Positions 60,653 to 61,190 of a DNA stretch of 61,263 bases are shown one piece after another. The notes under the pieces were generated by a model. It was given only the letters and a program-made list of their open reading frames with translations. It ran no database searches and had not been told where the DNA came from. Made by a program: the position numbers and the translations under genes. Numbering within the stretch: the stretch's first letter is position 1; every line of letters starts with the position of its first letter. Source of the stretch: Bacilli bacterium (GTDB lineage Bacteria; Bacillota_I; Bacilli_A; RFN20; CAG-826); contig JAFRPF010000037.1 of assembly GCA_017429285.1 (NCBI GenBank), forward strand, positions 1-61,263, given 5' to 3'.

Positions 60653-60681
60653 ATTATATTTGAGTTTCTAAAAAGAGACAA
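60653..60681 (-). promoter_or_regulatory. ackA promoter overlapped by a palindrome
   Basis: Minus strand: -35 TTGTCT (60681-60676), 17-base spacer, -10 TATAAT (60658-60653). The palindrome CAATTTC-AA-GAAATTG (60679-60694) overlaps the -35 box and could be an operator. Confidence 0.7.
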
Positions 60682-60701
60682 TTTCAAGAAATTGATAAAA
60701 A

Positions 60702-60731
60702 TCTCATAAATTAAAAAAATGAGACTTTTTT
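60702..60731. terminator. Hairpin with T-tracts on both strands, upstream of ackA
   Basis: TCTCAT (60702-60707) pairs with ATGAGA (60719-60724); CTTTTTTC follows on plus and TTTTT on minus. It isolates ackA from transcription coming from the right. From here to 60850 the DNA is very AT-rich and shows no gene. Confidence 0.5.
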
Positions 60732-60847
60732 CATCACTATATTTATATAACCTATATTTAATTGATAAACATAAATGTTAATACAATATAAATATATGTG
60801 ATGGTTAATATAAGTCAAAAATTCTTATATAAAAACTATTTTCTATT

Positions 60848-60856
60848 TGCTATGAT
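60848..60856 (+). promoter_or_regulatory. Extended -10 promoter of the small hydrophobic peptide gene
   Basis: TGC-TATGAT (60848-60856), a TG-extended -10 like that of glgC; the predicted transcript starts near 60863, giving a ~70-base leader. Confidence 0.5.
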
Positions 60857-60887
60857 TTGACTGTCAAAGACAAGACGTTAAAACTCG

Positions 60888-60925
60888 GAACGGAAACCTC
60901 TCATCTATTTTTATAGAAAGGAGGT
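60888..60925 (+). promoter_or_regulatory. Leader hairpin sequestering a consensus Shine-Dalgarno
   Basis: ACCTC (60896-60900) pairs with GAGGT (60921-60925) and TCTAT (60904-60908) with ATAGA (60913-60917), around a TTTT loop. The right arm contains the end of AAAGGAGGT (60917-60925), a perfect Shine-Dalgarno eight bases from the ATG. The left arm overlaps a 16-base repeat (60888-60903) that recurs, inverted, at 61065-61080. Confidence 0.65.
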
Positions 60926-60933
60926 ATCCCGAT

Positions 60934-61023
60934 ATGAAGGATGAAACAAAAGAGTTTTTAAAACTTTTGCGTCTCACCTTGATTTGTCTTCTTTTGTGTC
61001 TAGTAGCGATGCTTCTAAGATAA
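60934..61023 (+). CDS. Small hydrophobic peptide, candidate type I toxin
   Basis: 29 residues: a charged N-terminus (MKDETKEFLKLLR), one membrane-length hydrophobic stretch at about 14-28 rich in Leu and Cys, and a final Arg. Start codon, consensus ribosome site and stop are clear. Length, single transmembrane segment, sequestered Shine-Dalgarno, long-range 5'-3' complementarity and a convergent small RNA overlapping its 3' end are the hallmarks of Fst-, TxpA- or Hok-like type I toxins. I do not recognise the peptide as any named family. A leader peptide or small membrane regulator is the main alternative. Confidence 0.6.
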   Translation: MKDETKEFLKLLRLTLICLLLCLVAMLLR

Positions 61024-61084
61024 AAAAAGAATCCCATTTTTTATCCAAACCATGAAAGTGAAAGTGAGAGGGATCCGTTCTTAT
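61021..61084 (-). ncRNA. Candidate antisense (antitoxin) RNA, about 64 bases
   Basis: A minus-strand promoter lies directly upstream: -35 TTGCTT (61118-61113), 16-base spacer, TGA-extended consensus -10 TATAAT (61096-61091). The predicted RNA starts near 61084, begins with GAACGGATCCCTCTCA, and ends where GGATCCC pairs with GGGATTC (61035-61029) before seven T at 61028-61022. It is fully complementary to the 3' region of the peptide mRNA, just past the stop codon, and converges with it. Confidence 0.55.
61065..61080. repeat. Inverted copy of the leader repeat at 60888-60903
   Basis: Plus strand TGAGAGGGATCCGTTC. Its reverse complement GAACGGATCCCTCTCA matches GAACGGAAACCTCTCA at 60888-60903 in 14 of 16 positions, so the ends of a transcript spanning both can pair as 7 + 7 base pairs around a 2x2 loop. 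Confidence 0.85.
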
Positions 61085-61125
61085 GGTTACATTATATCAA
61101 ACAATCAATCTGAAGCAAAACTTAT

Positions 61126-61190
61126 TTTGTATGCATACGCTATACAAATGAACGTGTGTATTGCGAATAAAAATAAAAAACATCTATAAT
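61126..61190 (+). promoter_or_regulatory. Dyad and promoter ahead of the last gene
   Basis: Dyad TTTGTAT-9-ATACAAA (61126-61148), with the self-complementary GTATGCATAC (61129-61138) inside, lies between two diverging promoters. The rightward promoter is TTGCGA (61161-61166), 18 bases, TATAAT (61185-61190). The 201-base stretch 61024-61224 holds otherwise only the antisense RNA. Confidence 0.5.

Follow-up and report, generated by a model that had tools for sequence, protein, structure and literature searches.

A probable type I toxin-antitoxin module of a new sequence family in uncultured Bacilli, with a toxin mRNA proposed to act as a two-state switch

Judging from its sequence, the locus beside ackA in the window (the whole stretch of DNA analysed, 61,263 nt) is probably a type I toxin-antitoxin module that represents a new sequence family, and its toxin mRNA would operate as a two-state switch. 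A peptide reading frame, the leader of its mRNA and an opposing small RNA form one conserved unit, of which 87 unique copies were recovered by profile searches. A first-pass annotation had proposed a new convergent type I module here, and the reading frame, the minus-strand promoter, the leader hairpin and the layout all agreed with this proposal, while we infer the toxin-antitoxin designation itself.

The window is one entire contig of the 44-contig, 1.26 Mb genome of an uncultured gut bacterium, which carries a single copy of the unit by the leader pattern. The left neighbour, on the minus strand, is acetate kinase, ackA (Pfam Acetate_kinase, E 9e-133). The final 141 bases of the window overlap the start of contig C42, so that the right-hand gene could be read across the two contigs and was found to encode a lipoprotein with a Listeria-Bacteroides repeat. 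In a same-genus genome (L007 of G005) the ackA-lipoprotein junction is without the unit and measures 57 bp, against 502 bp here; a blastn comparison of the window from 57001 onward with this relative placed the missing segment at 60660-61160. Between ackA and the unit, a TCTCAT..ATGAGA hairpin followed by T6 is present on the plus strand at 60700-60733, with no obvious plus-strand gene preceding it.

On re-reading the sequence, the open reading frame, the Shine-Dalgarno (SD), both extended -10 elements and the terminator were all found where the first-pass annotation had placed them. On the plus strand, the extended -10 of the toxin promoter (TGC-TATGAT, 60848-60856) predicts a transcript starting at 60863, which opens with a 5'-end hairpin, GTC-N8-GAC (60863-60876), the middle pair of which covaries. 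The leader then contains two segments, P1 (GGAACGGA, 60887-60894), with a partner at 61074-61081 that was identified by compensatory changes and an RNAalifold consensus, and P2 (ACCTCTCA, 60896-60903), an anti-SD that can pair either with the SD (AAAGGAGGT, 60917-60925), with which it covaries, or with 61065-61071. The 29-aa hydrophobic peptide MKDETKEFLKLLRLTLICLLLCLVAMLLR, a presumed membrane toxin recognised from selection on its frame and from homologues, is encoded at 60934-61023, and a leader-complementary element of the mRNA 3' end, TGAGAGG..TCCGTTCTT (61065-61082), identified by duplex energies, lies wholly within the antitoxin overlap. On the minus strand, an extended -10 (TGA-TATAAT, 61099-61091) that is conserved among copies precedes a predicted antitoxin RNA of about 63 nt, placed from its promoter and terminator at about 61084 to 61022 and ending in a GGATCCC/GGGATTC stem and T7.

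The leader pattern located the unit in 51 of the 224 genomes, and in 11 of the 35 genera, of the window's own bacterial family, where a backwards control pattern gave zero matches, and the unit was absent from all 55 genomes of the order's other families. Applied to about 85,000 species genomes, the same mRNA 5'-leader pattern gave 61 matching stretches, every one labelled uncultured Bacilli, Bacillales or Erysipelotrichaceae. Among 144 genomes, a search with the 29-aa peptide gave matches in 14 and a DNA search in 23, the window's own genome included in both; many of the DNA matches were tandem, and the DNA count overstates the unit, some weak matches touching the flank only. Tandem arrays of two to six units occur, and a single array (as at L089, L060, L110 and others) can combine as many as six units whose peptides differ clearly, being of the KxNKE.., QLKDLE and KDxxKE types, on a near-identical RNA chassis. 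About five peptide types share this one regulatory chassis, at times side by side in one array, and the RNA frame is better conserved than the peptide that it carries; it is therefore the RNA control that defines the family.

The peptide frame is under purifying selection, with a dN/dS of 0.23 over 198 pairs, compared with pN/pS values of 0.88 and 1.55 for the other two frames; this, together with the 87 unique homologous copies, bore out the earlier expectation that the frame would be kept in relatives. Among the copies, 77 reading frames of 25-29 aa with an SD were identified, starting with ATG (55), TTG (15), GTG (4) or, in three cases, an apparent ACG or CTG. The last were seen in otherwise normal copies (G079:C17, L004; G084:C4, L008; L089), in which the start may be weak or mis-set, or the toxin inactivated. 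In a set of 15 diverse peptides, the hydrophobic core keeps a cysteine and a leucine. Searches of Pfam, NCBIfam, PHROGs and PDB sequences returned nothing convincing for the peptides; seven diverse peptides gave no match to the Fst models of Pfam and NCBIfam, and a profile of the seven gave none in the PDB.

The opposing RNA is the more uniform transcript in its promoter. Of 83 copies, 78 have exactly TATAAT as their minus-strand -10; the preceding TG is conserved at 84-85%, the -35 is TT-rich, and the distance from the -10 to AAGAACGG is a fixed 8 nt in 46 of 62 copies. In contrast, the toxin promoters are diverse and far less uniform, a -10 with five or six matches at the spacing of the window's copy being present in 30 of 63 non-redundant copies. 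The predicted antitoxin is fully complementary to the 3' end of the mRNA, overlapping it from the end of the stop codon onward (about 61022 to 61084), and its own 5' end is nearly identical in sequence to the mRNA leader. These data fit the predicted minus-strand RNA gene that had been annotated, with its own promoter, a T7 terminator and an overlap just past the stop codon, and its layout is conserved. Folded alone, the antitoxin is not unusually stable (-11.4 kcal/mol, z = -0.62). The two predicted transcripts converge and overlap; the stem in their overlap is good for the antitoxin, but in the toxin direction is followed by a weak U-tract (CGTTCTT), and the true 3' end of the toxin mRNA is uncertain because its own terminator is weak. 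A possible stem between AACCA at the antitoxin 5' end and a TGGTT in its middle, striking in some copies, scored 6.6 for cognate partners, modestly above the 5.8 for mismatched and 5.8 for reversed ones, and its G-U and A-C counts do not identify the pairing strand. Antitoxin-only cassettes, which have no peptide reading frame, were observed behind a complete unit at L059, L052, L066, L091, L097, L099 and other loci; TATAAT is intact in 9 of 12 such cassettes, and they could possibly serve antitoxin dosage or be decay products.

Three helices of the toxin mRNA show compensatory change: the 5'-end hairpin, a hairpin between leader and SD, and a long-range pairing between leader and 3' end; the second and third are in competition for one set of leader bases. 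In an independent alignment of 37 copies, 95.6% of the cells of these helices were paired. Both-side changes numbered 33, where shuffles gave 7.7 and none of 500 gave as many; shifting the partner by one to three bases reduced pairing to 30-60%. RNAalifold, given no structure, arrived at these three helices as well. In the 5' hairpin, the middle pair is A-U in 40, U-A in 22 and G-C in 7 of 69 sequences, with 15 parsimony changes per side. A tree-aware covariation test, run with an in-house script in the style of R-scape against 60 null alignments, was stricter: only two pair sites passed, one in the middle of the 5' hairpin and one between leader and SD, at values never reached by the 60 nulls (E<1/60), and the best leader:3'-end (P1) pair had E = 0.15. 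The covariance search that had been suggested in the first-pass annotation thus supported the leader hairpin at E<1/60. Across 81 copies, the 9-bp register of P1 is 93% paired and shows several kinds of compensatory change, and among the 37 copies both-side changes occur in six of its nine pairs.

The leader and the 3' end of the mRNA also proved to be matched to each other copy by copy. Leader x 3'-end helices scored 18.3 for cognate and 13.2 for mismatched partners, the duplex had a mean of -28.7 kcal/mol for cognate compared with -11.7 for shuffled sequences, and leaders favoured their own 3' end over a median of 97% of mismatched partners (p = 1e-11, n = 63; mean rank 0.92). On the toxin strand of P1, G-U pairs outnumbered A-C by 17 to 5 (p = 0.017), an excess that is expected if the toxin mRNA is the pairing strand. 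The full-length mRNA of the window's copy folds at -62.2 kcal/mol (z = -4.43), with 0 of 200 shuffles as stable. The SD-hiding hairpin described at the outset is real and covaries, although in the full-length RNA it competes with the leader:3'-end pairing, which the earlier annotation had not seen.

Folding of the window's own copy placed the leader on the 3' end in the full-length mRNA and closed the SD when the 3' end was removed, predicted SD accessibility being 0.45 for the full length and 0.01 with the 3' end masked. Across 60 copies, masking raised leader:SD pairing from 0.40 to 0.92 and lowered mean SD accessibility from 0.16 to 0.04, the full-length form being more accessible in 51 of the 60 (p = 9e-9), a test that is partly built in, as blocking any competitor favours the SD hairpin. 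Even the open SD is only modestly accessible (mean 0.16), and for about one copy in three folding predicts that the leader:SD hairpin persists beside P1. On the basis of these shifts we propose that the mRNA would be closed when nascent, open when full-length and free, and closed again when bound by the antitoxin. The pairings are backed by covariation; the order of events, which thermodynamic folding cannot settle, the effect on translation and the toxicity of the peptide we infer as follows. In the nascent mRNA, the CCTC box of the leader would pair with the SD and block translation before the 3' end exists. In the finished, antitoxin-free mRNA, the 3' end would capture the leader (P1 and P2), free the SD and allow the toxin to be made. 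Binding of the antitoxin to the 3' end would return the leader to the SD, and the resulting duplex may be open to cleavage by RNase III. If the locus were lost or its transcription stopped, a labile antitoxin would disappear first and the stable mRNA, with its 5'-end hairpin and end-to-end pairing, would make toxin.

In its layout the unit appears closest to Fst/par; the action at a distance that we propose for the antitoxin is most like that in BsrG/SR4. As in Fst/par (RNA I/RNA II of pAD1), an mRNA of about 220-230 nt encodes a small hydrophobic peptide, the promoters converge, the transcripts overlap in a terminator region, and the mRNA has a 5'-end helix and an SD-hiding stem-loop (PMC7472228). 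Unlike in Fst/par, the peptide here has no Fst match in Pfam or NCBIfam and the unit none in Rfam, and the leader is repeated on the opposite strand, so that the two ends of the mRNA pair together. These likenesses raise the alternative that the small RNA pairs first with the shared terminator and then, through a repeat, with the SD region, the leader hairpin merely delaying translation. A short direct repeat between an SD box and a 3' box is indeed present in the mRNA, and the antitoxin therefore carries a CCTC anti-SD. However, direct contact between antitoxin and SD is weak here, the antitoxin x start-region duplex being -13.2 kcal/mol against -11.4 for shuffled sequences, with a mean cognate rank of 0.60 (p = 0.009) compared with 0.92 for leader x 3' end, and SD contacts leave the pairing of P1 unexplained. 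Direct antitoxin:SD pairing was thus set aside as the main mechanism, and we consider the Fst/par-like alternative unlikely.

The switch might also run in the opposite direction, as in hok/Sok and AapA/IsoA, with the end-paired full-length mRNA inert and activated by 3' trimming. AapA/IsoA of H. pylori has the same kinds of element, co-transcriptional SD-hiding hairpins and a 5'-3' long-distance interaction, and the full-length AapA3 mRNA is 225 nt (PMC6733600). In contrast to AapA/IsoA, loss of the 3' end is predicted here to close the SD, because the leader segment that hides the SD is the one used by the 3' end, and the rise of leader:SD pairing from 0.40 to 0.92 on masking argues against opening; we regard an inert full-length form as rather unlikely. 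For an active one, TimP/TimR is a precedent by analogy: its full-length mRNA is translatable and adopts mutually exclusive conformations, of which the antitoxin inactivates the active one (PMC11228461), although there the active form needs a pseudoknot instead of pairing of the mRNA ends, and the system is enterobacterial with another peptide.

The proposed two-state switch shares with BsrG/SR4 of the B. subtilis prophage SP-beta an antitoxin directed at the 3' end of the mRNA, well away from the start site; binding of SR4 increases sequestration of the BsrG SD, from a stem of 4 to one of 8 nt (PMC4147584). The overlap is about 63 nt here and about 120 nt there, searches of Pfam, NCBIfam and Rfam gave no homology, and the leader:3'-end switch proposed here is a prediction from sequence and folding. 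TxpA/RatA is likewise convergent, with overlap at the 3' ends only and an antitoxin clear of the start site (PMC4147584), but TxpA has 59 aa and RatA acts mainly through mRNA decay. The unit thus has the layout of Gram-positive type I modules and a peptide unlike the Fst models, and is therefore a new family and not a new kind, its newness being set against Pfam, NCBIfam, PDB, Rfam and part of the literature. Neither peptide nor RNA had been recognised in the first-pass annotation, and no family in those four databases matched. Rfam searches with the window, with the locus at E up to 10 and with ten related loci gave no family for the unit, a tmRNA near one copy being the sole match, and no report of the family was found in the part of the literature covered.

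The peptide could instead be a small membrane protein whose role is physiological and whose synthesis is regulated, the antisense RNA being ordinary cis control. Single-helix peptides of such size occur among non-toxic small proteins, and the loci adjoin housekeeping genes (recA, ackA and others). Against this, toxin modules typically show such patchy presence, tandem arrays of divergent peptides, antitoxin-only cassettes and so tight a structural lock on translation, which makes a non-toxin role improbable. A small repeated, MITE-like mobile element, suggested by the inverted repeats, the empty site in a relative and the several copies per genome, is scarcely credible, given purifying selection on the frame, conservation of the antitoxin promoter and the position of the repeats, which lie inside the predicted transcripts and bear compensatory changes that include G-U pairs.

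In a subset of the family the toxin-antitoxin unit is linked to a regulator. Of 57 testable loci, 12 have a gene for an XRE-type regulator next on the toxin strand, mostly within 4-6 nt of where the profile match ends, and the palindrome GTTGT-N-ACAAC was found in the toxin promoter of 9 of these 12 loci and in 0 of the 45 others (Fisher p = 2e-8, not corrected for relatedness). Both the palindrome and an XRE-HTH gene directly after the unit are present at L071, L073, L080, L083, L085, L096, L101, L105 and L055; the window's own locus has neither. The N-terminus of the XRE protein is largely constant, while its C-terminus varies between hydrolase, NUDIX, GNAT (L063) and hexapeptide transferase (L068) domains, and at such loci the linked protein probably controls the toxin promoter. 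Control might then have three layers, in which the mRNA 3' end activates translation, the antitoxin masks it and, in part of the family, the enzyme-fused XRE protein senses a signal and acts on the toxin promoter through a GTTGT-N-ACAAC operator, a scheme that we put forward tentatively and that is, as a whole, doubtful.

The locus appears to add an undescribed type I family in uncultured, mostly rumen, Bacilli. The 87 natural variants lend themselves well to tests of how a toxin mRNA is kept silent during its transcription, and the loci with an XRE gene suggest a way in which a module of this sort might be coupled to a signal.

The genomic settings of the other units are varied. In viral contigs the pattern gave one match, inside a phage structural gene and without the unit, and thus no phage link. 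One unit has a tmRNA gene about 100 bp upstream of it (L068:4429-4819); tmRNA genes are a usual integration hotspot. With genes named by eye and not by profile, further units adjoin a fructose-bisphosphate-aldolase-like gene, or lie between ribokinase-like and FakA-like genes or between recA and an rny (RNase Y)-like gene. At L053, L086, L092 and L102 the unit lies 45-56 bp after recA on the same strand, before the RNase Y-like gene, and could possibly receive read-through from this SOS-controlled gene.
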